This document shows positions 7,865-63,146 of a stretch of DNA of 64,000 bases, piece by piece. This DNA comes from Ascidia mentula. Lineage: Eukaryota > Chordata > Ascidiacea > Phlebobranchia > Ascidiidae. The first letter of the stretch is position 1; each line of letters begins with the position of its first letter. The stretch lies in the NCBI GenBank assembly GCA_947561715.1, contig OX387202.1:10553001-10617000 (forward strand), read 5' to 3'. The notes below the pieces were generated by a model. That model was not told the origin of the DNA. It saw nothing but the letters and a program-made list of their open reading frames with translations, and ran no database searches. A program made the translations under genes and the position numbers.

Positions 7865-10800
7865 ATGCTGAATTTGTTGCTGATATTTGTGTTAATCGGA
7901 TGGGCGGAAGGTGAATGTCCGGTTGAGGACACAAGTTTGGCCCCTCTTCCTATCACAAGTAAGTGTTGCTTTTGCATGAACAACTGTTCGTTTTATTTTT
8001 GTTAATAATTGTTGTTCAACTAAATTTAACCTACTTTAAGTCACTTTCTGATAAATGAACACAACCTACATTTATGCTTTGTTTTAAACTTCACAACAAT
8101 TCAAAAAACTTTAAACTTGTAACAGAAGATGAAAAGCTACCGGTTTGTCAAGTCCCATATCGTGACTCAAGCTGCACTTGTCCCTCGGCCATGTTCGAAT
8201 GTGCTCATCATAAGATCGGTAAAGTCGGAATGAATCAACCTGGATGTATTGAGTGGTCGAAAGTTAATAACGTAAAAAACAACTGTGGGGATTGGAGTGA
8301 TGAGTTAAGTGATGTTTGTCCTGATAAAAGATTCCAGTGCGATTGTTTTACAACAACATGTCCCGGAAGTAATGGATGTTTGAAAATAAATGACCAATGT
8401 GATGGAAGAATGAATTGTTTAGACGGCAGTGATGAAGGTAACTGCACATGTCCAGCTGATAAGTTTGAGTGTCCATGTTACAAAACTAAAAATTGCTCCT
8501 CGTTATTGGGTGGTTGTATCGATAAAATTTGGCAATGCGATGGATGGAATAACTGTGGAGATTGGAGTGATGAGGTTAACTGTACATGTCCAGCTGATAG
8601 ATTTGAGTGTCCATGTTATGAGACTAAAAACTGTATGTCAGGAATTGGTTGGTTCGATAAATCAATACAATGCGATGGACGGAATGACTGTGGAGATTGG
8701 AGTGATGAGGTTAACTGCACATGTTCAGCTGATAGATTTGAGTGTCCATGTTACAAAAACAAAAACTGCTCGTCTTGGAGTGCTGGCTGCATCAGAAAAT
8801 CTTTGCAATGCGATAGAATTAATCACTGCGGAGATTGGAGTGATGAGGTGAACTGCACGTATAAAGGTAAATTTGAGTGTTCTTGTGTTGAAATGAAACC
8901 GTGTCTTGGAAAGAATTTAAATAGCATTGACCGATCTTTGTTGTGTGACGGAAATGCTGACTGCATTGATGGAAGTGATGAGACACATTCTAGCTGTAAC
9001 TGCTCTGGTACTTACGCCAGATGTCCATGTAACACAAATAACACACAATGCTCATCGAACGGTAGATGTATACCTTTTAACTGGATAAATGATACCTTCG
9101 TAGATTGTGTTGATGAAACTGACGAAATTTGCTCATTTTTCAACATTACTTGTCATTCTTGTCATTTGATGGCTCTAACGTGCCCAAGTGAAAAGGATGC
9201 CAGAAATCTCATACATACGAATGGTAATATTACGTGCAATGAAGTTGTTAGTAAAATGTGCGCTACTGATGTTCATAATTGTGAAGTTGATAAAGCGGTT
9301 TGTACAATGTCAAACTGCATTGAATCCTGCAAAAACGTTTTTTTCTGTGAAAATCAACAACTTATTGCAAGTGAATACTTTTGTGACACGCAAGCTCTTT
9401 ATGGCTGCAAGGACAAAAGTGACGAAATTTGTCATGGGTTTGGGTTTAAATGTTCTGGGTCAACAAGAAAAGGTGTTTGCGTTTTACCTCAAACCAACGT
9501 CTACGATTCAGTGGCTCAATGTTCTGACAGTTCAGATATTTGTTTCCTCAATGGACAGTTTAGATGTTTCCAGTGTTTGGACAGAAAACTGATAGTTTCA
9601 AGCCAGCAAGTCTGTGACGGTGTGGTGGATTGCTTCGATATGTCAGATGAATGTTTGTGCAAAAATCAAACATTGTGTTGCGATATAGTAGGAGATTGTG
9701 CACACAGCAAAATGCATGGTAAGAACAGTTCAAGATTTGTGAACCAAGATAAGGTGTTGTGTAACACAAGTGTAAAATGCGTCAACCAAACTGACACAAA
9801 ATATTGTTCAACTGCCACGGCATCAGTGCAAAGCGAGTGTATAGCAGATGGCAGAATTTTCATACGAAAAAGTATGGGTAATGATTCGTTGTGCGTTACA
9901 GTTATGACGGAATTGTTTACATCGTATGCTTCGATAGCTGAACTATACTATCCTTTGTGGTGTGATGGATCTGTCAAAGACGGTATCGGAGTTATCGGCG
10001 AACGTTTTTGTCCCAACAGGTTTAAGTGTTTCAGCAATGGAGAAATTAACATAGATAAACAAAGATTCTGTGATGGAATAATTGATTGTGACGACAAATC
10101 AGATGAATTTCTAGATCTTTGTAACAATACCCGCTACTACTGCAGAAGTAAAGGAAAGATTTCCATACATAGAGATCATGTTTGTAACGGAATAATTGAT
10201 TGTGACGACGAATCAGACGAATTTCTAGATCTTTGTAACAATACCCGCTACTACTGCAGAAGTAAAGGAAAGATTTCCATATATGGAGATCATGTTTGTG
10301 ACGGAATAATTGACTGCGAAGACGAATCTGATGAAAGCAGGAGTCGCTGCGAAAATACCAGGTTTTATTGCACAAACAAACTTCCTTTATCCGTCGAAAT
10401 ACGGCTTATACAGAACGGAATCAATGACTGCTCAGACGGAAGTGACGAATGTGTCAATTTGGATAGAAACGCTTTTGCAGACGTCAACGAAATGATCGCA
10501 AATCCAGTTTATCGAGGTATCTTCTGGTTGACAGGCATCTTAGCAATGGGAGGGAATTCGTTTGTATTTGTTACAACCACACTTGATTTGATTAAAGTCA
10601 ATAAAAATAACAATTTGTTTATTAATACAAGCGTTTTTGTTCTTAATCTATGCGTTTCTGACCTTCTCATGGGAGTTTATCTACTAGCAGCCATAATACA
10701 AGCTACCAGATATTCTGGATCTTATTGTTTGTTTGATAAAGAATGGAGATCAAGTAGCTTGTGTTCAGGACTTGGGGCACTTCAACTGGTATCATCAGAA

Positions 10801-11661
10801 GCATCAGCACTCACAATGACAGCTATGACAACATTTCGCCTGATATCGGCCTATAAACCTTTCCATATGCGAAATGTTGGTGTGACTAAAACTTTAATTG
10901 CTGAATTGTCTTGTTGGATATTAGCTATTTTGTTGGCAACCGTTCCTTTGCTTTACCCAATTTCTGAGTACTTTGTAACTGATGTTTGGTTTCCAAACAA
11001 CTTGTTTGAAACAGATTTTGTGTCGAGAGAAAACATGATGTTACTTGCAGAAAGAATTTCCACATCAGAGCCAGAGTCTTGGTACGATGTTAAGCGTACA
11101 ATTGTAAGTGCCTTTCCACGTAATTCTATCAAAAGAGAGTTTGGATATTATGGTGGAACGAGCGTCTGTATGCCACGTTTGTTTGCAACAACCAATGAGT
11201 ATGCTTGGGAATATTCAGCATTTCTTATTACACTCAACTTTCTCATGTTTATCTACATGGTAGTTGCTAATTTACTTGTTTACAAGCGAAGCAACCGCAT
11301 GAGAGGCTCCAGAACAACTGACGTCAGCTTCCAGATGCAGAAGAGAATCACAAGGTTGATTTTGACCGACTTTTGTTGCTGGATTCCAATTTGCTTCATG
11401 GGATTTTTGAGTTTTGGAGGAATGAAGATGCCAGGAGATTCTTATGTGCTGAGTGCTTGTATGTTGCTTCCAATCAACAGCGCCCTTAACCCCCTGCTCT
11501 ACTCCAAATCATTAGAAGAGCTATTGTCGAAGATAAAAGAATGGCTCGTTTCCAAAATATTATCAGTACGTACATCAAGGAGTCGTTCGTCTGAATTAAG
11601 CGTTAGATACAACCCCCGTGCTGAGCAGGATGGTGATCGAGTAATTGAGATTGTTGAATGA
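7865..11661 (+). CDS. GPCR1: LDLa-repeat seven-transmembrane receptor
   Basis: Predicted cell-surface receptor of 1209 residues, joined from 7865-7958 and 8126-11661. Exon 1 encodes a signal peptide (MLNLLLIFVLIGWAEG) and ends at a GTAAGTG donor; the acceptor is TTGTAACAG and the join is phase 1. About 14 LDLa-like modules follow (about 48-820), many with CDG..DC.D.SDE calcium-binding acidic residues; modules 8-9 are atypical. The rhodopsin-type domain spans about 828-1160: TM1 with GNSFVFV, TM2 with NLCVSDLLMGVYLL, a TFRLISAYKPF stretch where DRY is expected, and TM7 with INSALNPLLYS in place of NPxxY. These are closest to LGR/RXFP or GRL101-type receptors, but no leucine-rich repeats are present. 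The tail is Ser/Arg-rich and ends in acidic residues. The gene is fully open. The ligand is unknown. Confidence 0.88.
10117..10344 (+). repeat. Tandemly duplicated LDLa module in GPCR1
   Basis: Two adjacent 114-bp (38-residue) units are almost identical; each begins CTTTGTAACAATACCCGC and encodes a YYCRSKGKISI...SDE module. The same doubling is in GPCR2, while GPCR3-5 have one less similar module at this point. It therefore arose in the plus-strand subfamily before the GPCR1/GPCR2 split. Confidence 0.75.
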
Positions 11662-14615: not shown

Positions 14616-17600
14616 CTAATTTGAACGAAGTGAGAATACAAGAGAGGTAATGGACTTTCGTGCTTGACCCAAGCGCCGTTCCAATATATTAGAGTAAAGC
14701 AAGGGGTTAAGTGCGCTGTTGATAGGAAGCAACAGACAAGCACTCACAACATAAGCATCCGGAGGCATTTTAACACCTGCTATGCTCAGATATCCCATAA
14801 TGGAAACCGGAATCCAACAACAGAAATCAGTCAAAATCAATCTGCTTATTCTCTTCTGCATCTTGGAGATATTATCGTTGCCTCGGGATGCTCTCATGCT
14901 ATAATTTTGCTTGAAAATAAAAACATAAGCAATTACCATGTAGACAAACATCAGAAAATTGATTGTGATGATGAATGTAGAATATTCCCAAGCGAACTGA
15001 TTAGTTGTAGCAAAAAGTCGTGGCATGCAGACGCTTGTTTCCCCATAATAACCAATTTCCCCTTTAATTGGTTGCCTTGGAAACATATCAGTTATAATTT
15101 GCTTTACTTCAAACCAATTATCTGGTTTAATATTCAAAACTCTTTGCGCCAGAAGTGACATATTTCTTCTTGATACAAGATCTGTTTGATAAAAATTGTT
15201 TGGAAACCATACACTGGAAACAAAATACTTGGAAGTGATGTGTAACAGTGGGATAATAGCTGAACAAACGAAATGTTGTCATGGAGGCCAAAGTAAAAGA
15301 TGACGATTGCGATGACACAAGTGCAACTGCTCCAAAACCTGAACATAAGCTTCCAGATCTCCACTCCTTATCAAACAAACAATAGGAACCAGAAAACCGG
15401 GTTGCCTGGACAACAATCCCCAACAGGTAAATTCCCATTAGAAAGTCGGCTGCTGAGAGGTTAAGAATGAACACGCTTGTGCACACAAACACGTTCTGAT
15501 CCTTGTTCGACTTTGCTAATCTACAAGCAGTTGAGACAAACACAAACGAATTCCCGAACAATGCTAAGATTGCCATAATCCAGAAGAAAGCACGAAAAAA
15601 CGGGTTTGCAATCATTTCGTTGACGTTTGCGAGTGCGTTGTTCACCAAATTTACACATTCGTCACTTCCGTCGTTACAGTCGCCGATTCCATTGTTGACA
15701 AGCTTCCTGTCAATGGAAAGAGGTTGAGAATTTAAACAATAAAATCTGGTTCCTTCGCAAAGACAACGGTTTTCGTCTACTCCGTTATCGCAATCAACTA
15801 TGCCGTCGCAAACAAGTTTTCTTGCAATTGAAATCCTTCCTTTGCTTTTGCAGTAATAGCGAGTAGTTTTACATTTTTCCAGAAACTCATCTGATTTGTC
15901 GTCGCAGTCGATTTTTCCGTGACATACGCGATCACTAGCGATATTAATCTCACCCTTATTCAAACACCTGACAAAGTTTGGACAGTAAAGTTCAGTGGAA
16001 ACACCCAATTGGTGATGTACTTTCCCACTGCATACAAATGGAAGGTACTGAAGCAATTGATCCCTTGGAATAGTTGGAAACCTGCTAATATAATAGTCTA
16101 GTTTCGTGCATTTATAGCGAGTTGGACTTGACCGATTCTTTTTCAAGTTTGCTGGACACAGATACGATTTTAACTGTTGTTCATTTAAACAATACTTAGT
16201 ATTAGTTTGGTTGGAGCACTGAACACTTGTATTACACAGTGCAAGTACCTGGTTTAAACAAGTTGAGGTGTTATTACATAACACTTCATCCACAGGACAA
16301 CTTCCTCTAACTTCCCGACACAACGTTTGATCAGCGCACATACATTCGTCCGACATGTCAAAGCAGTCCACAACACCGTCACATACTTGTTTGCTTGAAA
16401 CTACAAGCCTTTTGTCCAGACAATGAAAGCATCGGAATTGGCCATTGACAAAGCAAAGATCAGAATTGTCCGAACATTAAGCCACAGAATCGTAGACGTT
16501 GGACTGAGGTAAAACACAAACACCTTTTCGTGTGACTCCAGAACATTTGAACCCAAATCCATGTTGAATTTCGTCGCTTTTGTCTTTGCAACTGTGTTGG
16601 GAATTACTTAATCCTTCACAAAAACCAGTTTTTGCAACAACTTGTTGGTTTTCACAGAAAAATACATCCCTGCAAATTGCGTTTGCACACGATGTAGTCG
16701 TACAAACTACCTTCTCCATTTGGCTGTAATTGATTCCGACAGCAAAGGCTTTGCTTACCACAGGATTGCAGGTTATTGATGTGTTCGTGTTGATTAATTG
16801 TCTGGCTTCCTTTTCTGTTTTACAGCTAACAGAAAGTGAGTGGCAAGATTGGCTAGAATAATAATTTGCAGAGCAAACTTCGTCACTTCCATCAATGCAG
16901 TCTGTGATGTTATCGCCCACCCACTGGTGGGGAATGCATCTGCCAGTTGCAAGTAGTTGTCTCTGTCAGATGTATTCCGACAATATGCTGAAATACCGGA
17001 ACAGTTACATGTATGATGCGTTTCATCACTTCCGTCAATACAATCTTCATTTCCGTCGCATATCAAGGAATGATCAATGCAGTTCAAGTTTATTCCAACG
17101 CATTGTCTGGTGCCGACACAAGCCCACGCGAACTTATTGACTGGGCAGGAGCAATTAATTTCATCACTCCAATCTCCGCATGTGTTCAAGCCATCGCATT
17201 GGTATGAGACTGGTAAGCATCCTCCTAATGTATTATTGCAGTTTTTTGTTTCGTAGCAATCACATTCAAAGGTATTAGCAGGACATGTGCAGTTTTCTTC
17301 ATCACTCCAGTCACCGTAGTGGTTGATTCCGTCACACCGGTTTATTGCAAATAGGTAACCGATGCCAAAGAACAATTTCGGTTCTTGTAACAAGGACACC
17401 TAACTTATAATGCGCAGGGAAGGACTTACAATTGATTTCATCACTCCAATCCCCGCAGCTATCAACTCCGTCGCAGTGAAGAATTGAGTTAAGACATCCA
17501 AACATGTAAGAACAGTTTTGTGTCTTGTAACATTCACACTCATACGTATTCGCTGGACATGTGCAGTTGATTTCGTCATACCAATCACCGCAATTGTTAT

Positions 17601-18461
17601 AACCGTCACACACTTCTGATTTGTTTATACAACCATATGAAGAATTAAAACCACCGACTGTTGCAACTACACCACCGCTTCTTATCTTTGTGCAGTTTCC
17701 TGTTTTGTAGCATGGACACTCAAACTTATCGACTGGACATGTGCAATTCAACTCATCACTTCCGTCGGGGCAATCGTCAACTAAATCGCATTTCAACAAA
17801 TCCAATACACAGCTTTCTCCATCCTTGCATGTTGTATTGTGGCAGTGACATTGAAAGAATCCTGGGTGGCACACTGAGGCCACTTCATCGCTCCAGTCTC
17901 CGCAGTTGTTGGAACCGTCTTGCAAGTACATCATATCTATACATCCCTGCACGGTTGGTTTACAACTTCCTATTTTGTGACAGGCGCATTCGAACATAGT
18001 GGTTGGACACGTGCAGTTGACGTCATAGTAGGGAGGAGTGCATGTTGAGGAATCAACGGCCCTAAGAAAAACATAAGGTTTTCTTCCAAGATCACCAAGA
18101 CTTTTACACTCACAGATATGAAGTCAAACATGATATATACATACCATAGTATTTGTGGGCTCAATTAAAATTGGTCAATGTTTAGATTCATATTGCGTGG
18201 TTTCACATCTATATTATAAGAAACATTGGACCAAAAAAGTTTGGTCGATTATAAAACAGTGTTGCTTCGATTTCAATAGCCCTAATTTGTTTGTTTATTT
18301 TTTTTATTTGAAAAATATATTAAAATCAATTTTTACGTTTAACGTATAGTTTACCGTGACTTACTTTTAAAGGGAAGTGGGGCCAAGCTTGTGTCCTCCA
18401 CTGGACAAAGACCTTCCACCAAACAAACCGAAAGAAGTAGTAGAATAAATATTCTTATCAT
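14616..18461 (-). pseudogene. GPCR3: broken LDLa-repeat GPCR
   Basis: Exon 1 (18461-18365) encodes the signal peptide MIRIFILLLLSVCLVEG and ends at GTAAGTCA. A 303-nt intron follows, with acceptor TTCTTAG, and exon 2 begins at 18061. The order is that of GPCR5: LDLa modules, then seven membrane segments, ending LVFSLRSN at 14616. Compared with its paralogues I see a 1-nt loss near 18050, a frameshift near 17402 with a second length change close by, a frameshift near 16945, a CAA-to-TAA stop at about 16480, and a deletion of about 89 nt near 15262. The last removes the end of TM3 through TM4. No full receptor can be made, although exon 1 and its splice sites look normal. Confidence 0.85.
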
Positions 18462-22977: not shown

Positions 22978-23270
22978 CCTAGTTTGAACGAAGTGAGAAT
23001 ACATGAGAGGCAAAGGACTTTCGTGCTTGACCCATGCGACGTTCCAATATATTAGAGTAGAGCAAGGGATTAAGTGCGCTGTTGATCGGAAGCAACAGAT
23101 AAGCACTCCCCACAAAAGCATCCGCAGGCAATTTTACACCTTATATGCTCAGATATCCCATAATGGAAATTGGAATCCAACAACAGAAATCAGTCAAAAT
23201 CAATCTGCTTATTCTCTTCTGCTGCATCGAGATGCTTTCATGCGATTATTTTGCTTGAAAATAAACATGT
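22978..23270 (-). pseudogene. GPCR 3' fragment in unit 2
   Basis: The minus strand encodes the last part of a GPCR3-5 type receptor, from the third intracellular loop through TM6-TM7 to the stop, with a small internal deletion near 23222. It matches the C-terminal region of GPCR4 closely but has no ectodomain. It lies about 1.6 kb downstream of the GPCR4 stop codon. Confidence 0.8.
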
Positions 23271-23289
23271 GTAAACAAACGTCAGAAAA

Positions 23290-24830
23290 TTGACTCGGTT
23301 TGTACTCTTGAGCGCCACCAGTCATTTATTTTGTGCTAAATAAAAGCCGCAAGATGTCGCTCACGATAAAGAAGTGTCCAAGGATTTTTGCCTGTGTTCC
23401 AGTCCCGGTGTGGTAAAAAGAACAAAGCATAGATCAAAATTTTGTTGGTAAACGTCAAACTGTTCGCTATATATGATATGCGATTTATATGAGTATGTTG
23501 ATTGTTTTGAATATGTAAAACGTTTTAAATCAAAATTATCTGTTGGGTAACAACACAAAGAGTAATTACTTGTAACACAGCACCGTTTCGAAATGTTTGT
23601 TTTCAGCAAATTCAGGCGATTTGAAAAACATACGGGAGATTTAACAGAAAATTGTGACGAACAAACGCATATATTGAATACACAGCATATGCTCTGGCGT
23701 AATAATACCAATGACTTCTTGTTTTGTTACTTCCGCTCGTTTACCTTCGCGTTTCTCTCGTATTTGTTGTTGTTATTGTGTCAAATGGATTCAAAATAAA
23801 AAATATTTAGAAAGCTAGATCTTGTGCGACATCTAACGGTGGGTGCCAATAAGTTTTTGCCAACACGTTTGCTTTACGTCGTCAAATATAATACATTTGT
23901 TTACATGGACATGTAGTTGGGAATCGACATCAATTCATTTTACTGGAGTTCATTTCCATACAACCGAATATTGGTAAGAGCCTTTAAATCATTTATGTAT
24001 ACATTTCAACAAGGCTATGCGTCTTTGATTTATGTCAGATGTTTTATTTTACTGAATATAAATAATTTCGGTTATGTATTGTCCCAATTGTTTTTTATTC
24101 AAATCTTCTAACCATTAATGCATTACGTTACTTAAAATAACGCCGCTGACTAATTTTGAGTTTAACAAGAATTCTATCAAATTCGCACTAACTTCCAAAC
24201 CACAGACCACAGTATGTGGCTCGCATACGGTGGTAAACAATTGTTTATGCAGGTGAATAGGTGTATTTATCTCAATTGAGCCAATGGCATTTTGCGGTTA
24301 AAAAATCATAATACCGTGACAAAACCGCATGCCTAAATATCATTCACAAAAATTGCCCTGCACTTATTTGAATAAGCGCATTGAAACTGTTGATACTGAC
24401 ATCAATTTTTTTGAATTATTTCTACAATCGTTGCTATCCCCATAAATTACGTTCATTAGTAACATTTTAGCAACTACTTAAAAAAATATTGCAAAACATT
24501 TGCGTGACTGTGAAACTCCACACATTTAATCGTGTACAAAGCTTGTACAAAATTCATCTGTACATTTAATTCATAACCGGTCCATTTACTGCGCGCTTAA
24601 CAAGAAGACCACTAGTGATGTAAAACAACTCTAAAAAACGTAATTTGAAAGAACAAACGGCGTATAGAAAGATAATTTCCATGCGTAAAGAACAATATTT
24701 GTTTTGCAATCATTGGAATCATGAACGAATGCACGGTTATTTTCAGACCATGTGTGTCTTTTATCAAACGTACGTACTACACTAAGATATACATAAAACA
24801 TATTGGAGAAATAAACAATATATACAATAT
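23290..24830. repeat. Spacer block R, copy 2
   Basis: Non-coding block between the GPCR 3' fragment and GPCR4, matching 13225-14560 and 31790-33250 with small indels. Open stretches in it are not conserved as protein among the three copies. Confidence 0.55.
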
Positions 24831-24893
24831 ATTACATGCAGAAAAACATACCACGCTAAAATTACATGTAGCTGCAGAGCTACGGCCATTGAC

Positions 24894-27800
24894 CTAGTTT
24901 GAACGAAGTGAGAATACAAGAGAGGCAATGGACTTTCGTGCTTGACCCAAGCGCCGTTCCAATATATTAGAGTAGAGCAGGGGGTTAAGTGCGCTGTTGA
25001 TCGGTAGCAACAGACAAGCACTCACCACATAAGCATCCGGAGGCATTTTTACACCTGCTATGCTCAGATATCCCATAATGGAAATTGGTATCCAACAACA
25101 GAAATCAGTCAAAATCAATCTGCTTATTCTCTTCTGCATCTTAGAGCTATTATCGTTGCCCCGGGATGCTTTCATGCGATTATTTTGCTTGAAAATAAAA
25201 GCATAAGCAATTACCATGTAGATAAACAGTAGAAAGTTGATTGTGATGATGAATGTAGAATATACCCAAGCGAACTGATTAGTTGTAGCAAAAAGGCGTG
25301 GCATGCAGACGCTTGTTTCCCCATAATAACCAATTTCCCCTTTAATTGGTTGCCTTGGAAACATATCAGTTATAATTTTCTTTGCCTCAAGCCAAGTATC
25401 AGGTTTAATATTTGAAACTCTTTGCGCCAGAAGTGACATATTTCTTCTTGACACAAGATCTGTTTGATAAAAATTGTTTGGAAACCAGACACTGGAAACA
25501 AAATACTTGGAAGTGATGTGTAACAGTGGGATAATAGCTAAAAGAATAGCTGCCACCCAGCAAAAGACTGCAACAGTTACAGTTTTAACGACACTGGCAT
25601 TCCTCATAACAAAAGGTTTCAATGAAGAGATCAAACGAAATGTTGTCATGGAGGCCATAGTAAAAGATGATGTTTCCGATGATACAAGTGCAACTGCTCC
25701 AAAACCTGAACATAAGCTTCCGGTTCTCCACTCCTTATCAAACAAACAGTAGGAACCAGAAAACCGGGATGCCTGGACAACGATCCCCAACAGGTAAATC
25801 CCCATGAGAAAATCGGCTGCTGAGAGGTTAAGAATGAACACGCTTGTGCACACAAACACGTTCTGATCCTTGTTCGACTTTGCTAATCTGCAAGCAGTTG
25901 AGACAAACACAAACGAATTCCCCAACAATGCTAAGATTGCCATAACCCAGAAGAAAGCACGATAAAATGGGTTTGCGATCATTTCATTAACGTTTGCGAA
26001 TGCATTGTTCACTAAATTTACACATTCGTCACTTCCGTCCGAACAGTCGTCGATTCCATTGTTAACAAACTTCCTGTTAACGGAAAGAGGTTGAGAATTT
26101 AAACAATAAAATCTGGTTTCTTCGCAAAAACAATGGTTTTCGTCTATTCCGTTATCACAATCAACTATGCCGTCGCAAATATGTTTTCTTGCAATTGAAA
26201 TCCTTCCTTTACTCTTGCAGTAGTAGCGAGTAGTTTTACATTTTTCGAGAAACTCATCCGATTTGTCGTCGCAGTCGATTTTTCCGTCGCATACGCGATC
26301 ACTAGCGATATTAATCTCACCCTTGTCAAAACACCTGACAAAGTTTGGACAGTAAAGTTCAGTGGAAACACCCAATTGGTGATGTACTTTCCCACTGCAT
26401 ATAAATGGAAGGTACTGAAGCAATTGTTCCCTTGGAAAAGTTGGATACTTAAATATTCTAGTTTTGTGCATTTGTAGCGGGTTGGACTTAACGGATTCTT
26501 CTTCACGTTTGTTGGACACAGATACGATTTTGACTGTTGTTCATTTAAACAATACTTAGTATTGGTTTGGTTGGAGCACTGAACACTTGTGTTACACAGT
26601 GCAAGTACCTGGCTTAAACATGGTGAGGTGTTATTACACAACACTTCATTCACAGGACAACTTCCTGTAACTTCTCGACACAAAGTTTGATCAGCGCACA
26701 GACATTCGTCCGACATGTCAAAGCAGTCCACTACACCGTTACATACCTGTTTGCTTGAAACTATAAGTTGTTTGTCTAGGCATTGAAAGCATCGAAATTG
26801 GCCATTGACAAAGCAAAGGTCAAAATTGTCCGAACATTGAGCCACAGAATCGTAGATGTTGGACTGAGGTAAAACACAAACACCTTTTCGTGTGACTCCA
26901 GAACATTTAAACCCAAATCCTTGTTGAATTTCGTCGCTTTTGTCTTTGCAACTGTGTTGGGAATTACTGAATCTTTCACAAAAATCAGTTTTTGCAACAA
27001 CTTGTTTGTTTTCACAGAAAAATACATCCCTGCAAATCGCGTTTGCACACGATGTAGTCGTACAAACTACTTTCTCTATTTGGCTGTAATTGATTCCGAC
27101 AGCAAAGGCTTTGCTTACCACAGGATTGCAGGTTATTGATGTGTTCGTGTTGATTAGTTGTCTGGCTTCCTTTTCTGTTTTACAGCTAACAGAAAGTGAG
27201 TAGCAAGATTGGCAAGAATAATAATTTGCAGAGCAAACTTCGTCACTTCCATCAATGCAGTCTGTGATGTTATCGCCCACCCACTGGTAGGGAATGCATC
27301 TGTCAGATTTTAAGTAGTTGCCTCCGTCAGATGTATTCCGACAATATGCTGAAATACCGGAACAGTTACATGTATGATGCGTTTCATCACTTCCATCAAT
27401 ACAGTCTTCATTTCCGTCGCATAGCAACGAATGATCAATGCAGTCCAAGTTTATTCCAACACATTGTCTGGTGCCGACACAAGCGCACGCGAACTTATTG
27501 ACTGGGCAGGAGCAATTAACTTCATCACTCCAATCTCCGCATGTGTTCAAGCCATCGCATTGGTATGAGACTGGTAAGCATCCTCCGAGTGTATTATTGC
27601 AGTTTTTTGTTTCGTAGCAATCACATTCAAAGGTATTAGCAGGACATGTGCAGTTTTCTTCATCACTCCAGTCGCCGCAGTGGTTGATTCCGTCACACCG
27701 GTTCATTGCCAATAGGTAACCGATGCCAAAAGAACAATTCGGTTCTTGTAACATGGACACTCAAACTTATAATGCGCAGGGAAGGACTTGCAATTGATTT

Positions 27801-28809
27801 AATCACTCCAATCCCCGCAGCTATTAGCTCCGTCGCAACGAAGTATTGAGTTAAGACATCCAAACATGTAAGAACAGTTTTGTGTCTTGTAACACGCACA
27901 CTCATATGTATTCGCTGGACATGTGCAGTTGATTTCGTCATACCAATCACCGCAATTGTTATAACCGTCACACACTTCTGACTTGTTAATACATCCATAT
28001 GAGGGATTGAAACCATCGCCTGTTGCAACTACACCCCCGCTTCTTAGCTTTGTGCAGTTTCCTGTTTTGTAGCATGGACACTCAAACTTATCGACTGGAC
28101 ACGTGCAACCCAACTCATCACTTCCGTCAGGGCAATCGTCAACTAAATCGAATACACAGCTTTCTCCGTCCTTACATGTTGTATTGTGGCAGTGACATTG
28201 AAAGTGTCCTGGTCGGCACACTGAGGTCACTTCATCGCTCCAGTCTCCGCAGTTGTTGGAACTGTCTTGCAAGTACATCATATCTATGCATCCCTGCACT
28301 GTTGGTTTACAACTTCCAATCTTGTGGCAGGCGCATTCGAACATAGTGGTTGGACACGTACAGTTGACGTCATAGTAGGGAGGAGTGCACGTTGAGAGGT
28401 TCAACGGCCCTACGAAAAACATAAGGTTTTCTTCCAAGATCACCAAGACTTTTACACTCACAGATGTGAAGTCAAACATGATATATACATTGCATTGTAT
28501 TTGTGGGCTCAATTAAAATTGGCCAATGTTTGATTCATATTGCGTGGTTTCATATTTATATTATCACTTACATTGGACCAAAAAAAGTTTGGTCGATTAT
28601 AAAACAGTGTTGCTTCGATTTCAATAGCTCTAATTTGTTTGTTTAGCTTTTTCATTCAAAAAAAATATTAAAATCAATTTTAACGTTTAACGTATAATTT
28701 ACCGTGACTTACTTTTAAAGGGAAGTGGGGCCAAGCTTGTGTCCTCCACTGGACAAAGACCTTCCACCAAACAAACCGAAAGAAGCAGTAAAATAAATAT
28801 TCTTATCAT
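24894..28809 (-). pseudogene. GPCR4: LDLa-repeat GPCR with an intact 7TM region but a broken ectodomain
   Basis: Exon 1 is 28809-28713 (same signal-peptide exon as GPCR3) and exon 2 starts at 28409. The LDLa modules are interrupted by a GAA-to-TAA stop at 27799-27801, a 1-nt loss near 27742 and a 7-nt loss near 26450. From 26519 to the stop at 24894 the frame is open: the last LDLa modules, all seven membrane segments (TTFRLISSLKPF after TM3, INSALNPLLYS in TM7) and a short tail ending LVFSLRSN. A product with the full ectodomain is not possible. Use of a downstream start would need another signal peptide, and I see none. Confidence 0.85.
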
Positions 28810-29654
28810 TTTTAAGCATCTAGAAAGTTCGCCACTAGTTTACTTACCATATCTGTATATTACATACTTTTCTGTGCAAAAAAGTCAAAATAACACGCTT
28901 CTCATGCATGTGGTTGTGGTGACGCTAAAGATTATCGCTCTGAATAGATATTGCATAGCTTTTGAATCACTATAACATCCACAAGTCTGATATAAATAAA
29001 TTTTGCATAGTTCTGCGATAAGTAGTCCATTCCGTATCTTTGCGACTCACTTGATAGCAAGCTAAAAGAATTCTGTCAGAATTTACTCGACTGCAAAATA
29101 TACACCGTATGCCTATGTGGTCGACGAATTAAAAGGGCCACGAATGTTTTCAGCTCAACAAACAGACGCTCAAAATTCGCCCAAATTGCCAAATGCCGCC
29201 GGCGACGGCGAGAAATATTTTTGAGAATTAACATTAATTCAGAAGGGGCATCAGACCGCTAACCACAATATCCTGTCCAACGTGCAGGTCCAAACCACTA
29301 CATCAAAAAGTTCTGTTTGTGATGTCAACTCGACGTGTCAGTGGATCGTGCTTGGTGGCAGAGAAGAACGTGACAAATAAAATATCGCATGTACATATTA
29401 TTCTGTGATTGACATTATGACATTAATTTTCTCCACCGTTTGTATGAACACTGTTGCCTAGTAACACCACAAGTAAACTTATTCCGGGTTAGTTGGTTGA
29501 AACAGTCATTACAGTTTGGTCAGCAGATTTTCTGGCAATGTAAGTTTTGCCCAATTGCAAGTGGTATGAAAATTGGTTTCCTTGCTGTTTTTATTTCCTT
29601 ACCTGCAAAACCAACACGAACACAAACAAATGAGCACCATGTAAAACGCAGCCA
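28810..29654 (-). promoter_or_regulatory. Upstream region of GPCR4
   Basis: Counterpart of 18462-19257 and 37191-37820, with a few indels such as an extra GATATTGCATAGC-type stretch near 28945. It ends at minisatellite array 2. No gene is seen. Confidence 0.4.
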
Positions 29655-31389: not shown

Positions 31390-31775
31390 TGGAGAAATGT
31401 AAAATATATATACAATACATTACAAGCAGAAAAACAAAATACACAACGCTAAAATTACTGCAGAGCTAGTGAGAAGTGAGAATACAAGAGAGGCAATGGA
31501 CTTTCGTGCTTGACCCAAGCGCCGTCCCAATATATTAGAGTAGAGCAGGGGATTAAGTGCGCTGTTGATCGGTAGCAACAGACAAGCACTCACCACATAA
31601 GCATCCGCAGGCATTTTAACTCCTGTTATGCTCAGATATCCCATGATGGAAATCGGAATCCAACAACAGAAATCAGTCAAAATCAATCTGCTTATTCTCT
31701 TCTGCATCTTAGAGCTATTATCATTGCCTCGAGATGCTTTCATGCGATTATTTTGCATGAAAATAAAAACATGTG
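31390..31775 (-). pseudogene. GPCR 3' fragment in unit 3
   Basis: The minus strand encodes TM6-TM7 and neighbouring loops of a GPCR3-5 type receptor (RMKASRGNDNSSKMQKRISR through INSALNPLLYS), followed by a remnant of the normal 3' flank. The usual LVFSLRSN end is lost. The break in the third intracellular loop is close to that of the fragments at 13160 and 22978, so all three probably derive from one event. Confidence 0.8.
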
Positions 31776-33311: not shown

Positions 33312-36300
33312 CTAGTTTGAACGAAGTGAGAATACAAAAGAGGCAATGGACTTTCGTGCTTGACCCAAGCGCCGTTCCAATATATTAGAGTAGAGCAAGG
33401 GGTTAAGTGCGCTGTTGATCGGTAGCAACAGACAAGCACTCACTACATAAGCATCCGGAGGCATTTTTACACCTGTTATGCTCAGATATCCCATAATGGA
33501 AATTGGTATCCAACAACAGAAATCAGTCAAAATCAATCTGCTTATTCTCTTCTGCATCTTGGAGCTATTATCGTTGCCCCGGGATGCTTTCATGCGATTA
33601 TTTTGCTTGAAAATAAAAGCATAAGCAATTACCATGTAGACAAACATTAGAAAGTTGATTGTGATGATGAATGTAGAATATTCCCAAGCGAACTGATTAG
33701 TTGTAGCGAAAAGTCGTGGCATGCAAACGCTTGTTTCCCCGTAATAACCAATTTCCCCTTTAATTGGTTGCCTTGGAAACATATCAGTTATAATTTGCTT
33801 TACCTCAAACCAATTATCTGGTTTAATATTTGAAACTCTTTGCGCCAGAAGTGACATATTTCTTCTTGACACAAGATCTGTTTGATAAAAATTGTTTGGA
33901 AACCAGACACTGGAAACAAAATACTTGGAAGTGATGGGTAACAGTGGGATAATAGCTAAAAGAATAGCTGCCACCCAGCAAAAGACTGCAACAGTTACAG
34001 TTTTAACGACACTGGCATTCCTCATAACAAAAGGTTTCAATTGTCATGGAGGCCATAGTAAAAGATGATGTTTGCGATGACACAAGTGCAACTGCTCCAA
34101 AACCTGAACACAAGCTTCCAGATCTCCATTCCTTATCAAACAAACAATAGGAACCAGAAAACCGGGATGCCTGGACAACGATCCCCAACAGGTAAATCCC
34201 CATGAGAAAATCGGCTGCTGAGAGGTTAAGAATGAACACGCTTGTGCACACGAACACGTTCTGATCCTTGTTCGACTTTGCTAATCTACAAGCCGTTGAG
34301 ACAAACACAAACGAATTTCCGAACAATGCAAAGATTGCCATAATCCAGAAGATAGCACGATAAAACGGGTTTGCAATCATTTCATTAACGTTTGCGAATG
34401 CATTGTTCACTAAATTTACACATTCGTCACTTCCGTCCGAACAGTCGTCGATTCCATTGTTAACAATCTTCCTATTAACGGAAAAAGGTTGAGAATTTAA
34501 ACAATAAAATCTGGTTCCTTCGCAAAGACAACGGTTTTCGTCTATTCCGTTATCACAATCAACTATGCCGTCGCAAATATGTTTTCTTGCGATTGAAATC
34601 CTTCCTTTACTCTTGCAGTAATAGCGAGTAGTTTTACATTTTTGGAGAAACTCATCTGATTTGTCGTCGCAGTCGATTTTTCCGTCGCATACGCGATCAC
34701 TGGCGATATTAATCTCACCCTTGTTGAAACACCTGACAAAGTTTGGACAGTAAAGTTCAGTGGAAACACCCAATTGGTGATGTACTTTCCCACTGCATAT
34801 AAATGGAAGGTACTGAAGCAATTGTTCCTTTAGAAAAGTTGGATATTTGCTTAATAAATATTCTAGTTTTGTGCATTTGTAGCGGGTTGGACTTAACGGA
34901 TTCTTCTTCACGTTTGTTGGACACAGATACGATTTTGACTGTTGTTCATTTAAACAATACTTAGTATTGGTTTGGTTGGAGCACTGAACACTTGTGTTAC
35001 ACAGTGCAAGTACCTGGCTTAAACATGGTGAGGTGTTATTACACAACACTTCATTCACAGGGCAACTTCCTCTAACTTCCCGACACAAAGTTTGATCAGC
35101 ACACAGACATTCGTCCGACATGTCAAAGCAGTCCACTACACCGTCACATACCTGTTTGCTTGAAACTATAAGTCGTTTGTCTAGGCATTGAAAGCATCGA
35201 AATTGGCCATTGACAAAGCAAAGGTCAGAATTGTCCGAACATTGAGCCACAGAATCGTAAACGTTGGACTGAGGTAAAACACAAACAGCTTTTCGTGTGA
35301 CTCCAGAACATTTAAACCCAAATCCTTGTTGAATTTCGTCGCTTTTGTCTTTGCAACTGTGTTGGGAATTACTGAATCCTTCACAAAAGTCAGTTTTTGC
35401 AACAACTTGTTTGTTTTCACAGAAAAATACATCCCTGCAAATTGCGTTTGCACACGATGTAGTCGTACAAACTACCTTCTCTATTTGGCTGTAATTGATT
35501 CCGACAGCAAAGGCTTTGCTTACCACAGGATTGCAGGTTATGAATGTGTTCGTGTTGATTAGTTGTCTGGCTTCCTTTTCTGTTTTACAGCTAACAGAAA
35601 GTGAGTGGCAAGATTGGCAAGAATAATAATTTGCAGAGCAAACTTCGTCACTTCCATCAATGCAGTCTGTGATGTTATCGCCCACCCACTGGTAGGGAAT
35701 GCATCTGTCAGATTTTAAGTAGTTGCCTCTGTCAGATGTATTCCGACAATATGCTGAAATACCGGAACAGTTACATGTATGATGCGTTTCATCACTTCCA
35801 TCAATACAGTCTTCATTTCCGTCGCATAGCAACGAATGATCAATGCAGTTCAAGTTTATTCCAACACATTGTCTGGTGCCGACGCATGCGCACTGAAACG
35901 TACCAACTGGGCAGGTGCAATTAACTTCATCACTCCAATCTCCGCATGTGTTCAAGCCATCGCATTGGTTTGAGACTGGGACGCATCCCCCTAATGTATT
36001 AATGCAGTTTTTTGTTTCGTAGCAATCACATTCAAAAGTATTAGCGAGGCATGAGCAGTTTTCTTCATCACTCCAGTCGCCACAATTGTTGATTCCGTCA
36101 CATTGAAAGAATTTTGAAAAGCAACCATCAGAAGAACAATTCCTGCTCTGGTAACAAGGACACTCAAAATCATTGGCAGGGCAGAACGTACAATTGATTT
36201 CATCACTCCAATCCCCGCAGCTATCAGCTCCGTCGCATTGAAGTATTGAGTTAAGACATCCATACATATAAGAACAGTTTTGTGTCTTGTAACATGCACA

Positions 36301-37190
36301 CTCATATGTATTCGCCGGGCATGTGCAGTTGATTTCGTCATACCAATCAACACAATTGTTATAACCGTCACAAACTTCAGACTTGTTGATGCAACCATAT
36401 GAGTGTTTGACACCATCCGTTACAACTACACCGCTTCTTAGCTTTGTGCAGTTTCCTGTTTTGTAGCATGGACACTCAAACTTATCGGCTGGACACGTGC
36501 AACCCAACTCATCACTTCCGTCGGGGCAATCTTCAACTAAATCGCATTTCAACAAATCCAATACACAGCTTTCTCCGTCCTTGCATGTTGTATTGTGGCA
36601 GTGACATTGGAAGTGACTCTGTCTGCACACTGAGGTCACTTCATCGCTCCAGTCTCCGCAGTTGTTGGTACTGTCTTGCAAGTACATCATATCTATACAA
36701 GCCTGCACTTTTGGTTTACAACTTCCAATTTTGTGGCAGGCGCATTCGAACATAGTGGTTGGACATGTGCAGTTGACGTCATTGTAGGGAGGGGTGCATG
36801 TTGAGAGGTTCAACGGCCCTACGTAAAACATAAGGTTTTCTTCCAAGATCGCCAAGACTTTTACACTCACAGATATGAAATCAAACATGATATGTACATT
36901 GCATTGTATTTGTGGGCTCAATTAAAATTGGCCAATGTTTGATTCATATTGCGTGGTTTCATATTTATATTATAACAAACATTGGACCAAAAAAAGTTTG
37001 GTCGATTATAAAACAGTGTTGCTTTGATTTCAATAGTTCTAATTTGTTTGTTTATCTTTTTCATTTGAAAAAAAACGTTTTACCGTGACTTACTTTTAAA
37101 GGGAAGTGGGGCCAAGCTTGTGTCCTCCACTGGACAAAAACCTTCCACCAAACAAACCGAAAGAAGTAGTAGAATAAATATTCTTATCAT
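33312..37190 (-). pseudogene. GPCR5: nearly complete LDLa-repeat GPCR with one frameshifting deletion
   Basis: Exon 1 is 37190-37094 (signal peptide, GTAAGTCA donor) and exon 2 starts at 36818 after a TACGTAG acceptor. The frame is open to 34003 and gives 14 LDLa-like modules and TM1 to TM3. A 20-nt deletion near 34040, relative to GPCR4, then removes the TTFRLISS region at the inner end of TM3 and shifts the frame. TM4-TM7 and the LVFSLRSN end continue in another frame (34040-33312). This is the best preserved minus-strand copy. If transcribed it could yield a large ectodomain with three membrane segments, but it is most simply a recent pseudogene. Confidence 0.85.
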
Positions 37191-53394: not shown

Positions 53395-53461
53395 GAAAGC
53401 ATATTCGTGCAATGTATGCGATAAAAATTATAAACATTCCAATATATTTACTGCATACACC
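53395..53461 (+). pseudogene. Truncated zinc-finger fragment downstream of ZF-C
   Basis: Only the start of the fragment seen at 1735-2000 remains (YSCNVCDKNYKHSNIFTAYT). It runs straight into LINE sequence at about 53461. Confidence 0.65.
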
Positions 53462-59339: not shown

Positions 59340-62300
59340 ATGCTGAAATTGTTGCTGATGTTTGTGTTAATCGGATGGGCGGAAGGTGAATGTCCGGGTG
59401 AGGACACAAGTTTGGCCCCTCTTCCTATCACAAGTAAGTGTTGCTTTTTTGCATGAACAACTGTTCGTTTTATTTTTGTTAATAATTGCTGTTTAACTAA
59501 ATTTAACTACTTTAAGTCACTTTCTGATAAATGAACACAACCTACATTTATGCTTTGTTTTAAACTTCACAATAATTCAAAAAACTTTAAACTTGTAACA
59601 GAAGATGAAAAGCTACCGGTTTGTCAAGTCCCATATCGTGACTCAAACTGCACTTGTCCCTCGGCCATGTTCGAATGTGCTCGTCATAAGATCGGTAAAG
59701 TCGGATCGAGTCAACCTGGATGTATTGAGTGGTCGCAAATAAATGACGAACAAAACAACTGTGGAGATTGGAGTGATGAGTTAAGTGATGTTTGTCCTGA
59801 TAAAAGATTTCAGTGCGATTGTTTTACCACAACATGTCCCGGAAGTAATGGATGTTTGAAAAATAATGAGCAATGTGATGGAAGAATGAATTGTTTAGAC
59901 GGCAGTGATGAATTTAACTGCACTTCATGTCCTGCTGATAAGTTTGAGTGTCCATGTTACAAAACTAAAAATTGCTCCTCGCTATTTGGTGGTTGTATCG
60001 ATAAATTTTGGCAATGCGATGGATGGAATAACTGTGGAGATTGGAGCGATGAGGTTAACTGTACATGTCCAGCTGATATATTTGAGTGTTCATGTTACAA
60101 GACGAAAAACTGTACGTCCGGATTTGGTTGGTTCAGTAAATCAGTACAATGCGATGGATGGAATGACTGTGGAGATTGGAGTGATGAGGTTAACTGCACA
60201 TGTCCAGCTGATAGATTTGAGTGTCCATGTTACAAAAACAAAAACTGCTCGTCTTGGAGTGCTGGCTGCATCAGACAATCTTTGCAATGCGATAGAATTA
60301 ATCACTGCGGAGATTGGAGTGATGAGGTTAACTGCACGAATGAAGGTAAATTTGAGTGTTCTTGTGTTGGAGCAAAACCGTGCCTCGGAATGGATTCAAA
60401 TAGCATTGACCGATCTTTGTTGTGTAACGGAAAAGCTGACTGCATTGATGGAAGTGATGAGACACATTCTAGCTGTAACTGCTCTGGTACTTACGCCAGA
60501 TGTCCATGTAATACAAATAACACACAATGCTCATCGAACGATAGATGTATACCTTTTAACTGGATAAATGATACCTTCGTAGATTGTGTTGATGAAACTG
60601 ACGAAATTTGCTCATTTTTCAACATTACATGTCAATCTTGTCATATGATGGCTCTAACATGCCCAAGTGAAAAGGATGCCAGAAATCTTATACATACGAC
60701 TGATCCATATACGTGCAATGATGTTGTTAGTAAAACGTGCGCTTCTGATGTTCATAATTGTGAAGTTGATAAAGCTATTTGTACAATTTCAACATGCCGT
60801 GAATCCTGCAAAAACGTTTTTTTCTGTGAAAATCAACAACTTATTGCAAGTGAATACTTTTGTGACACGCAAGCTGGTTATGGCTGCAAGGACAAAAGTG
60901 ACGAAATTTGTCATGGGTTTGGGTTTAAATGTTCTGGGTCAACAAGGAAAGGTGTTTGCGTTTTACCTCAAACCAACGTCTACGATTCAGTGGCTCAATG
61001 TTCTGACAGTTCAGATATTTGTTTCCTCAATGGACAGTTTAGATGTTTCCAGTGTTTGGACAGAAAATTGATAGTTTCAAGCAAGCAAGTCTGTGACGGT
61101 GTGCTGGATTGCTTCGATATGTCAGATGAATGTTTGTGTAAAAATCAAACATTGTGTTGCGATATAGTTGGAGATTGTGCACACAACCAAATGCATGGTA
61201 AGAACAGTTCAAGATTTGTGAACCAAGGAAAGGTGTTGTGTAACACAAGTGTAAAATGCGTCAACCAAACTAACACAAAATATTGTTCAACTGCCACGGC
61301 ATCAGTGCAAAGTGAGTGTATAGCAGATGGCAGAATTTCCATACAAAAAAATATGGGTAATGATTCGATGTGCGTTACAGTTATGACGCAATTGTTTACA
61401 TCATATTATTCTACAGTGATAGCTGAACTATACTATCCTTTGTGGTGTGATGGATCTGTCAAAGACGCTATCGGAGTTATCGGCGAACGTTTTTGTCCTA
61501 ACAGGTTTAAGTGTTTTAGCAATGGAGAAATTAACATAGATAAACAAAGAGTCTGTGATGGAATAATTGATTGCGACGACAAATCAGATGAATTTCTAGA
61601 TCTTTGTAACAATACCCGCTACTACTGCAGAAGTAAAGGAAAGATTTCCATAAATACAGATCATGTTTGTAACGGAATAATTGATTGTGACGACGAATCA
61701 GACGAATTTCTAGATCTTTGTAACAATACCCGCTACTACTGCAGAAGTAAAAGAAAGATTTCCATATATGGAGATCATGTTTGTGACGGAATAATTGATT
61801 GTGACGACGAATCAGATGAAAGCAGGTGTCGCTGTGAAAATACCAGGTTTTATTGCACCAACAAAGATCCTTTATCCGTTGAAATAGGGCTTATACAGAA
61901 CGGAATCAATGACTGCTCAGACGGAAGTGACGAATGTGTTAATTTGGATGAAAACGCTTTTGCAGACGTCAACGAAATGATTGCAAACCAAGTTTATCGA
62001 GGTATCTTCTGGATGACAGGCATCTTAGCAATGGGAGGAAATTCATTTGTATTTGTTACAACCACACTTGATTTGATTAAAGTCAATAAAAATAACAATT
62101 TGTTTATTAATACAAGCGTTTTTGTTCTTAATCTATGCGTTTCTGACCTTCTCATGGGAGTTTATCTACTGGCAGCCATAATACAAGCTACCAGATATTC
62201 TGGATCTTATTGTTTGTTTGATAAACAATGGAGATCAAGTAGCTTGTGTTCAGGACTTGGGGCACTTCAACTGGTATCATCAGAAGCATCAGCACTCACA

Positions 62301-63146
62301 ATGACAGCTATGACAACATTTCGCCTGATATCGGCCTATAAACCTTTCCATATGCGAAATGTCGGTGTTACGAAAACTTTAATTGCTGAATTGTCTTGTT
62401 GGATATTAGCTATTTTGTTGGCAACCGTTCCTTTGCTTAATCCAACTTCTGAGTACTTTGTAACTGATGTTTGGTTTCCAAATAACTTTTATGAAACAGA
62501 TTTTGTGTCAAGAGAAAACATGATGTTACTTGCGGAAAGAATTTCGGCATCAGAGCCAGAGTCTTGGTACGATGTTAAGCGTACAATTGTAAGTGCCTTT
62601 CCACGTAATTCTATCAAAAGAGAGTTTGGATATTATGGTGGAACGAGCGTCTGTATGCCACGTTTGTTTGCAACAACCAATGAGTTTGCTTGGGAATATT
62701 CAACATTTCTTATTACACTCAACTTTCTCATGTTTATCTACATGGTGGTTGCTAATTTTCTTGTTTACAAGCGAAGCAACCGCATGAGAGGCTCCAGAAG
62801 AAATGACATCAGCTCCCGGATGCAGAAGAGAATCACCAGATTGATTTTGGCCGACTTCTGTTGCTGGATTCCAATTTGTTTCATGGGATTTTTGAGTTTT
62901 GGAGGAATGAAGATGCCAGGAGATTCTTATGTGCTGAGTGCGTGTATGTTGCTTCCAATCAACAGCGCCCTTAACCCCTTGCTCTACTCCAAATCATTAG
63001 AAGAGCTATTGTCGAAGATAAAAGAATGGCTCGTTTCCAAAATATCATCATTACGTACATCAAGAAGTCGTTCGTCTGAATTAAGAGTTAGATACAACCC
63101 CCGTACTGAGCAGGATGGTGATCGAGTAATTGAGATTGTTGAATGA
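59340..63146 (+). CDS. GPCR2: LDLa-repeat seven-transmembrane receptor
   Basis: Close paralogue of GPCR1, 1212 residues, joined from 59340-59433 and 59602-63146. The signal peptide is MLKLLLMFVLIGWAEG. Splice signals and phase match GPCR1. All 14 LDLa-like modules, the doubled 38-residue module, the seven membrane segments and the long Ser/Arg tail are kept. Differences gather in the LDLa region, for example an added Ser in LDLa module 3 and STV in place of AS before the later modules; the membrane domain is almost unchanged. The frame is open throughout, so with GPCR1 it is one of two likely working receptors in the window. Confidence 0.88.

Follow-up and report, generated by a model that had tools for sequence, protein, structure and literature searches.

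The LDLRR-GPCRs of Ascidia mentula probably form a birth-and-death recognition repertoire, in which an array of LDLa modules and a variable ectodomain segment contact varied ligands. Ascidians belong to the sister group of vertebrates. We analyzed a window of 64,000 nucleotides, placed by inference on chromosome 6, which contains, judged from its sequence, five real receptor genes, two intact and three broken. The same reading establishes their architecture (a signal-peptide exon, then a long exon encoding the LDLa array, a Cys-rich variable segment, further LDLa modules beside the membrane and an RXFP/LGR-type 7TM), two subfamilies (A and B), and tandem duplication that left relics at unit junctions. 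The size of the family, recent copy loss and especially a signal of diversifying selection mapped to 45 residues bear on where ligand is bound and on the task of the receptors, recognition rather than response to a fixed hormone.

In the mechanism that we propose, the LDLa array and the variable segment would bind a changing extracellular ligand (candidates are a protein, a lipoprotein complex, or a cue from microbes or conspecifics), and the membrane-next LDLa module or hinge would act on the 7TM much like the LDLa module of RXFP1. Gene duplication, unequal exchange that alters the LDLa array, and change within the variable segment would generate new specificities, and surplus copies would decay. 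Only tentatively do we extend this to some 100 modular GPCRs as an ascidian recognition system (chemosensory, immune, or for self/non-self discrimination at fertilisation) that might draw its specificity from duplication, in-exon LDLa expansion and shuffling, and an exchanged, selected, Cys-bounded segment of ~45 residues, with the presence or absence of intact copies varying between individuals. A published Ciona survey found no vertebrate-type olfactory receptors in ascidians.

Gene structure and receptor class

A first-pass annotation had described two fully open plus-strand genes around three reversed and disabled ones of a distinct subfamily, all five sharing a signal-peptide exon layout and a 14-module plan. 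The open frames, orientations, lesions, subfamilies and exon layout were borne out. GPCR1 exon 1 (7865..7958, +) has a start codon, a signal peptide and a GTAAGT donor in phase 1, splice sites and phase being inferred from sequence; exon 2 (8126..11661, +), in an open frame at 8059-11661 (+, 1200 aa stop to stop), encodes ~14 LDLa-type modules, Cys-rich spacers, the 7TM and a tail, and is open to its stop. GPCR2 comprises a signal-peptide exon 1 (59340..59433, +, its end set by homology to GPCR1) and an open exon 2 (59602..63146, +, its start set likewise) in a frame of 1203 aa at 59535-63146 (+). The two proteins are identical in 1082 of 1176 aligned columns. Each of the five window genes begins with a signal-peptide exon that has a GTAAGT donor behind it. 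Rfam and tRNA scans (the latter in bacterial setting) each returned 0 matches in the window.

A plan of ~14 modules fits the window genes but is not a rule for the family. A local LDLa profile gave 14 matches each in GPCR1, GPCR2 and a third plus-strand copy, with weak scores for several (E up to 0.8), and by eye the layouts differ among these three (7+3+4 versus 8+3+3). Run on pieces, Pfam supported 12 LDLa stretches for GPCR1 and 11 for GPCR2, and PF00057 matched the whole frames at 9.3e-40 and 3.1e-37, respectively. The open B copy G0 had 16 profile matches, ~14 of which we read as LDLa. Across the family, by contrast, N-terminal arrays range from 7 to 18 SDE-type motifs (13/16 genes, those in which the spacer was found), and ~24 LDLa-type motifs occur in one paralogue. 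The modules are predicted to be of the calcium-binding type, and their copy number changes between genes. A 138-bp tandem array in GPCR1 (8395..8858, +) corresponds to the N-terminal modules, and a 114-bp array (10075..10335, +, 93% match) to a recently duplicated module; the latter recurs in GPCR2 (61554-61820) and is shorter by one unit in the third plus-strand copy. At C69:881112, 14 N-terminal modules are 81-99% alike in DNA.

The 7TM scored above the 7tm_1 cut-off of 30.5 bits, as a class A (rhodopsin) GPCR does, with 58.3 bits for the part cut from GPCR1 and 62.9 for the C-terminal frame of GPCR4. LRR repeat families gave no match at E<=0.01 on whole frames, in a Pfam run that also missed 7tm_1 there, and pieces of the GPCR1 and GPCR2 ectodomains gave none even at E<=1; an LRRNT match in GPCR2 (13 bits, E 0.08, cut-off 25.8) sits on LDLa sequence. 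The D/E-R-Y type motif is usual, not universal, in class A GPCRs. Here, at the end of TM3, F replaces its acid in GPCR1, GPCR2 and GPCR4, and one distant member has Y at this site by eye. The best solved relative of the 7TM was RXFP1 (7tmw), at 2.5e-20 in a search where LRP2 outscored it through the LDLa part, or at 6.3e-27 when a 7TM-region profile was used. An AlphaFold2 model of the 7TM (pLDDT 33.2) was too poor for use. A search with the olfactory profile 7tm_4 gave no match, but its control was also without a match, so that the negative carries no weight.

Tandem duplication and copy loss

The three minus-strand genes carry different lesions, scored relative to a sibling whose frame is open, with minor length differences at the far 3' end, beyond the natural stop, left out of the count. 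GPCR3 (14616..18461, -) has four 1-bp deletions (18053, 17403, 17369 and 16946), one stop (16479) and an 89-bp deletion (15264). GPCR4 (24894..28809, -) has a stop (27801), a 1-bp deletion (27739) and a 7-bp deletion (26451), its 7TM part being open, and GPCR5 (33312..37190, -) has a sole 20-bp deletion (34041) around the end of TM3. No disabling lesion common to any of the three was found. The 7TM tree that the first-pass annotation had proposed separates the two subfamilies, with GPCR4 and GPCR5 in subfamily B; GPCR3, which was not in the tree, was assigned to B by its 93% DNA identity to both.

Pairwise w (dN/dS) for the broken copies was 0.28-0.31. Counted on private changes, w was 0.27, 0.25 and 0.24 for GPCR3, GPCR4 and GPCR5 and 0.41 for the open sibling L049; with L049 left out of the comparison, the three values were 0.31, 0.26 and 0.39. 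The value for Gm1 is unsafe in the run that included L049, where the alignment broke up its large deletion; other runs gave 0.30-0.36 (pairwise) and 0.39 (private changes). Because the private changes of GPCR3-5 show as much constraint as the open sibling does, we read the three as recent losses and reject old pseudogenes. The losses are also independent of each other.

Such constrained-looking changes, like the single lesion in GPCR5, would also suit genes that are not truly broken and whose lesions are assembly errors or unseen introns. We consider this very unlikely, however: the lesions include deletions of 7, 20 and 89 bp, the longest run within 10 bases of all five 1-bp sites is at most 3, the assembly has a QV of 64.9 (PMC11109543), and the same stretch is one open exon in sibling genes. 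GPCR3-5 could instead be null alleles, intact in other individuals, that reflect presence/absence polymorphism of a recognition locus. Their independent, recent lesions and the presence on this chromosome of close siblings whose frames are open are in keeping with polymorphism, but recent fixed loss accounts for the same pattern, and we rate null alleles as the less probable outcome by some distance.

GPCR4 and GPCR5 sit in tandem units. The unit with GPCR4 (22990..29465) is 90.6% identical to the GPCR5 unit (31473-37826), and each bears a relic of the 3' end of a B gene at its left edge (22982..23257, -, and 31465..31773, -). Blocks of 1-12509 recur in the same order at 51643-63998 with 84-95% identity, a divergence that ascidian alleles might partly reach, as would be expected if haplotypes of a very heterozygous animal had been misplaced in tandem. 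Yet the copies number more than two (another A gene lies at C70:10638230-10641874, and C70 holds 13 A loci), the published BUSCO duplication of the assembly is 1.2% (PMC11109543), and the minus-strand units have differing lesions as well as junction relics. On copy number and published assembly metrics we reject alleles in tandem, and we regard false duplication as exceedingly improbable.

Mapping the family through the whole genome, another proposed check, found at least 107 related 7TM loci, a lower bound that merges 105 and 111 genome matches and counts intact, broken, partial and distant members. Two earlier impressions proved to be effects of the window. The supposed five-gene cluster is part of a set of 27 A and B loci within 1.37 Mb of the window's chromosome, open members of the "broken" subfamily included. 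That subfamily, taken to be disabled throughout, has stop-free open frames of at least 1191 aa at 6/14 loci (e.g. L049 and G0); exon 1 is present in G0, the sole one of the six searched for it. In subfamily A, 36/51 loci have a complete 7TM match and a stop-free frame of at least 1000 aa. Tandem units, junction relics, 107 loci and open copies beside broken ones sustain the view of one family in birth and death.

Selection on the variable segment

Between GPCR1 and GPCR2, w was 0.53 in the ectodomain and 0.30 in the 7TM, and whole-gene w was below 1. Codon models (M0/M1a/M2a) were self-coded, and the code was checked only by 60 simulations. Comparison of M1a with M2a gave no signal in the 7TM (three gene sets, P = 0.08, 0.59 and 0.39) and 2dlnL values of 49.5 and 94.8 in the C-terminal ectodomain of two A sets. 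Site models and segment-only tests delimited a hypervariable, non-LDLa, Cys-containing segment (GPCR1, 9832..9969, +; GPCR2, 61311..61454, +), which in GPCR1 sits after the tenth LDLa-type module and before the last four. Tested alone, it gave P = 2.8e-4 (8 genes) and 8.9e-5 (16 genes), or 0.0015 and 7.1e-6 on ungapped columns, and 0/60 null simulations reached the observed value (8-gene set); the remainder of the C-terminal ectodomain gave P = 0.19 and 0.096 in the two A sets. The segment bounds were drawn from the tested data, so that its separate P values lack independence; that two gene sets agree is the stronger argument. Tree-free estimates of its pN/pS were 1.69 (0.85-4.64) and 0.89 (0.57-1.30), by themselves not above 1. 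Gene exchange may contribute, since the LRT was far larger on trees built from the flanks. Six B genes, two near-identical pairs among them, gave no signal (P = 0.38), in a test of low power. M2a was also favored in the N-terminal array (P = 3e-6), a result on which we do not rely because module duplication makes the alignment unsafe. Positive selection over the whole ectodomain is unsupported.

The ~45-residue non-LDLa segment of subfamily A appears to be under diversifying selection. Conflict-driven evolution, suggested in the first-pass annotation, is only partly supported: a signal is seen in this segment, but not in the 7TM or the six B genes; the separate dN/dS estimates it called for do set the ectodomain above the 7TM, with the signal mapped to sequence outside the LDLa modules. 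The genes might alternatively be ordinary hormone receptors that have kept relaxin/insulin-like ligands under neutral tandem drift, the segment being a weakly constrained linker. This would agree with RXFP1 as the nearest of the solved chains to the 7TM, with tree-free segment pN/pS not significantly above 1 and with whole-gene w well below 1. It is doubtful, however, because the LRR part, which holds the main relaxin site in RXFP1 (PMC4561518), is absent here, M2a fits the segment better than M1a in both A sets, also when only ungapped columns are used and, for one set, when judged by 60 simulations, and the loci number 107. We favor the recognition repertoire.

Relation to known receptor families

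The genes are of a kind already known, the LDLRR-GPCRs, receptors that lack LRRs and join LDLa repeats to a relaxin-receptor-like 7TM. Vertebrate OR and nematode sr families form tandem arrays with few introns, birth and death and many pseudogenes; the A. mentula genes have the same genomic habit, which implies no kinship, but differ in their long modular ectodomain. They resemble RXFP1/RXFP2 (type C LGR) in 7TM sequence, the LDLa module, NSALNP(I/L)LY at the end of TM7 and CWIP in TM6. RXFP receptors combine one LDLa module with LRRs (PMC4561518, accessible part), whereas the A. mentula genes have many LDLa modules and no LRR, F in place of the E of RXFP1 at the acidic site of the TM3 motif, and a second extracellular loop ~55 residues longer. 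They are thus neither type C1 LGRs (RXFP1/2), defined by an LRR ectodomain and one LDLa, nor type C2 LGRs (GRL101), defined by multiple LDLa modules plus LRRs, of which they have the former only. Snail GRL101 likewise places several LDLa modules before an LGR-type 7TM, but has LRRs besides (PMC2396169, accessible part), and a GRL101-like receptor of a starfish, in which six LDLa modules occur, is also an LGR (PMC6267866, accessible part).

Among the matches listed in open-licence PMC, only the 2008 Ciona paper treats LDLRR-GPCRs; none was found there on G protein-coupled receptors of A. mentula, and the accessible text of PMC12373286 mentions neither GPCR nor LDL. In its accessible part, the 2008 description from Ciona intestinalis (Kamesh et al., PMC2396169) reports 30 receptors with an RXFP-like 7TM, of which 14 carry LDLa, single or as 2-10 repeats, EST matches mostly from blood and haemocytes, and lipoproteins or large protein complexes as proposed ligands. 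These receptors were orphans in 2008, and a claim on the ligand site is now testable. The A. mentula genes share with them an RXFP/INSL3-receptor-like 7TM, tandem N-terminal LDLa modules, the lack of LRRs and a lineage-specific ascidian expansion. They differ in the segment with a diversifying-selection signal, which goes without mention for Ciona in that part of the paper, in having 107 related loci (broken, partial and distant ones included) against 30 receptors, and in carrying ~14 LDLa modules per window gene, and ~24 motifs in one paralogue, against single modules or 2-10 repeats in Ciona.

Receptor genes within and beyond the window

All five receptor genes that the first-pass annotation had placed in the window were recovered, with GPCR1 (exon 2 in 8059–11661) and GPCR2 (59535–63146) open on the plus strand and GPCR3, GPCR4, and GPCR5 broken on the minus strand. 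The common signal-peptide exon layout also held, as a short exon ending in a GTAAGT donor was seen in all five. Pfam matched LDLa repeats on whole frames. Pfam missed the class A 7TM when GPCR1 and GPCR2 were searched as whole frames, but matched it once parts were cut. Ectodomain pieces contained 12 LDLa stretches in GPCR1 and 11 in GPCR2 and no LRR repeats detectable by Pfam (one 13-bit LRRNT match fell far under the cut-off). The best solved relative of the 7TM was the relaxin receptor RXFP1.

The five-gene frame of the cluster is an effect of the window. Flanking slices revealed G0, an open gene of subfamily B (that of GPCR3–5) 36 kb to the left (plus strand, 1239 aa frame, exon 1 found), Gm1, a truncated B copy 5–7 kb to the left, and G8, a third open gene of subfamily A (that of GPCR1 and GPCR2) at relative positions 85230–88874. 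The family was mapped across its own genome, as first proposed, in the 195.8 Mb assembly kaAscMent1.1 (reported QV 64.9, duplicated BUSCOs 1.2%; PMC11109543). Searches with the 7TM parts of GPCR1 and GPCR4 yielded at least 105 (104 of 674 candidates scored) and at least 111 (110 of 696) matches, merging into at least 107 loci, broken, partial, and distant ones included: 31 each on contigs C2 and C69, 28 on C70 (matching chromosome 6 in length and holding the window), and 17 on six further contigs. Among the matches listed, 51 loci were ≥75% identical to GPCR1, and 36 of these matched the 7TM in full, without a stop, and had a frame of at least 1000 aa; the remaining A loci comprised seven with at least one stop (some perhaps only the natural end), four short frames, and four partial matches. 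Instead of five genes, C70 carried at least 27 A/B loci (13 A, 14 B) within 9.715–11.08 Mb, and the disabling lesions first noted in all of GPCR3–5 did not extend to the whole subfamily, with full open frames in 6/14 of these B loci among the matches listed. The A/B order was partly repeated with similar spacing (C70:10315748–10401520 and 10440155–10519664), which, judged by order and spacing rather than alignment, may be the pattern expected from large segmental duplications. More distant loci showed 33–54% identity (one 7TM among them was read). On C69 (15110118–15300432), six copies with equal open frames (1083 aa) and a 7TM 47% identical to GPCR1 lie 28–67 kb apart, perhaps another recent array.

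A midpoint-rooted FastTree phylogeny comprised 36 7TM sequences: loci L018–L053 minus L027, L028, L037, and L046, whose best frames did not span the 7TM, plus G0, GPCR4, Gm1, and a GPCR5 piece; it excluded GPCR3 and reached no further than the 30 loci cut out from the GPCR1 search. The B genes formed one clade (support 1.0), upholding the distinct subfamily first suggested for GPCR4 and GPCR5; GPCR3 was instead assigned by its 93% DNA identity to both. The C70 A genes also formed one clade (support 1.0), whose nesting among A genes of C69, C2, C71, and C72 was weakly supported.

Other elements occur in and near the window. A C2H2 zinc-finger gene (PF00096) occurs three times on the plus strand (262–1389, 41947–42915, and 52202–53026, the third with a shorter open frame); its copies lie in blocks 90–95% identical in DNA, are interspersed with the receptor genes, and seem to have been duplicated together with them. 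Two 385-bp blocks (45486–45870 and 53994–54378) share 99% identity, more than the duplications around them. An inverted repeat (43182–43632 and 43874–44324), whose 451-bp arms match at 99% with 241 bp between them, has the look of a foldback or short inverted-repeat element of recent origin. Retrotransposon reverse transcriptase remnants were found at 3167–3892 (plus strand; zf-RVT, PF13966) and, assigned by likeness, at C70:10634065–10634784. Long-frame pairs in both orientations at C70:10657750–10675137 (L015–L016), read by eye, look like a large mobile element bearing a DNA polymerase.

Module number and loss of copies

Tandem repeats of 114 to 138 bp, within a single exon, make up the LDLa array. 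The suggested 14-module plan stood in so far as a local LDLa profile gave 14 matches each, several weak, in GPCR1, GPCR2, and the third A copy; however, their layouts differed, and the N-terminal array, delimited in 13 of 16 parsed genes, contained 7, 8, or 10 SDE-type motifs in 12 genes and 18 in one. The 18-motif gene, on C69, has a 1681-aa frame, with 14 modules 81–99% alike in DNA and recurring blocks of about five modules. Open frames of A loci from the GPCR1 search spanned 1044 to 1681 aa among the matches listed. Together, motif counts, near-alike modules, and frame lengths show internal duplication to be what alters module number.

The GPCR4 and GPCR5 units (22990–29465 and 31473–37826) align over their full length with 90.6% identity. 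At the start of each lies a leftover 3′ end of a B gene (22982–23257 and 31465–31773), as would be expected if unequal exchange had taken place inside the gene. A 77-bp minisatellite, part of the tandem unit, adjoins GPCR3 and GPCR4 (19264–20081 and 29661–30338). Each disabling lesion is private to one of GPCR3, GPCR4, and GPCR5. Pairwise dN/dS among them was 0.28–0.31, and private changes gave 0.27 (0.16–0.43), 0.25 (0.12–0.50), and 0.24 (0.14–0.39), respectively, compared with 0.41 (0.24–0.73) for the open B sibling L049 (0.31, 0.26, and 0.39 in a first count leaving L049 out). By these ratios, GPCR3–5 were constrained through most of their separate history and either were lost recently or are null alleles in this one animal.

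Probable diversifying selection in the ectodomain

For GPCR1 versus GPCR2 (dS 0.084), region-wise dN/dS, as first proposed, was 0.30 in the 7TM compared with 0.53 in the ectodomain. Site models (M0/M1a/M2a; own code, IQ-TREE branch lengths, one scale factor) were likewise split by region. They covered three sets: the eight C70 A loci, out of 13, whose full frames were available (those truncated or carrying stops were dropped, as were two unfetched ones); the 16 of 19 fetched off-C70 A loci with a full frame and pattern-matched TM1 start; and six B genes. No positive selection was detected in the 7TM of these sets (P 0.08, 0.59, and 0.39) and M2a was not favoured in the B ectodomain (P 0.38), whereas the C-terminal half of the A ectodomain gave strong signals (2ΔlnL 49.5 for 8 genes, 94.8 for 16). 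The conflict-driven evolution first suggested is only partly borne out: the sites behind this signal concentrate in one Cys-bounded, non-LDLa stretch (GPCR1 9832–9969). This stretch, picked from the same data that then tested it, favoured M2a on its own tree (P 2.8e-4 and 8.9e-5) and in ungapped columns only (P 0.0015 and 7.1e-6), and in the C70 set 0/60 simulations under M1a attained the observed statistic; without it, the C-terminal half did not favour M2a (P 0.19 and 0.096). Its M0 dN/dS (1.62 and 0.77) did not differ significantly from 1 in either set (2ΔlnL 1.87 and 1.54), and its tree-free ratio was 1.69 (0.85–4.64) and 0.89 (0.57–1.30), with pS likewise doubled in the 16-gene set. Likelihood ratios were much larger with trees from the flanks, a hint of transfer of the stretch from gene to gene. 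The stretch reads as a hypervariable segment, some of whose sites are probably under diversifying selection, with a contribution from gene exchange.

Putative coupling and known receptors

In RXFP1, the LDLa module is required for 7TM activation, and a tethered-ligand role has been proposed (PMC4561518). Here, LDLa modules extend up to the hinge preceding TM1, and the stretch before TM1 aligns with its counterpart in RXFP1 and in the TSH receptor. A ligand would be bound by the LDLa array and variable segment and relayed by the membrane-next LDLa/hinge. Coupling may differ, because the TM3-motif acid is replaced by F and the second extracellular loop is ~55 residues longer than in RXFP1.

Ciona has 14 LDLRR-GPCRs among 30 receptors with an RXFP-like 7TM, a domain organisation termed novel by Kamesh et al. 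(2008, PMC2396169), who suggested lipoprotein or protein-complex ligands and found EST matches chiefly in blood and haemocytes. Their architecture is the same as that of the Ascidia genes on every feature that could be compared. As far as the open-licence literature shows, the scale of the Ascidia family, its longer and changing arrays, its recent copy loss, and its localised selection are new.
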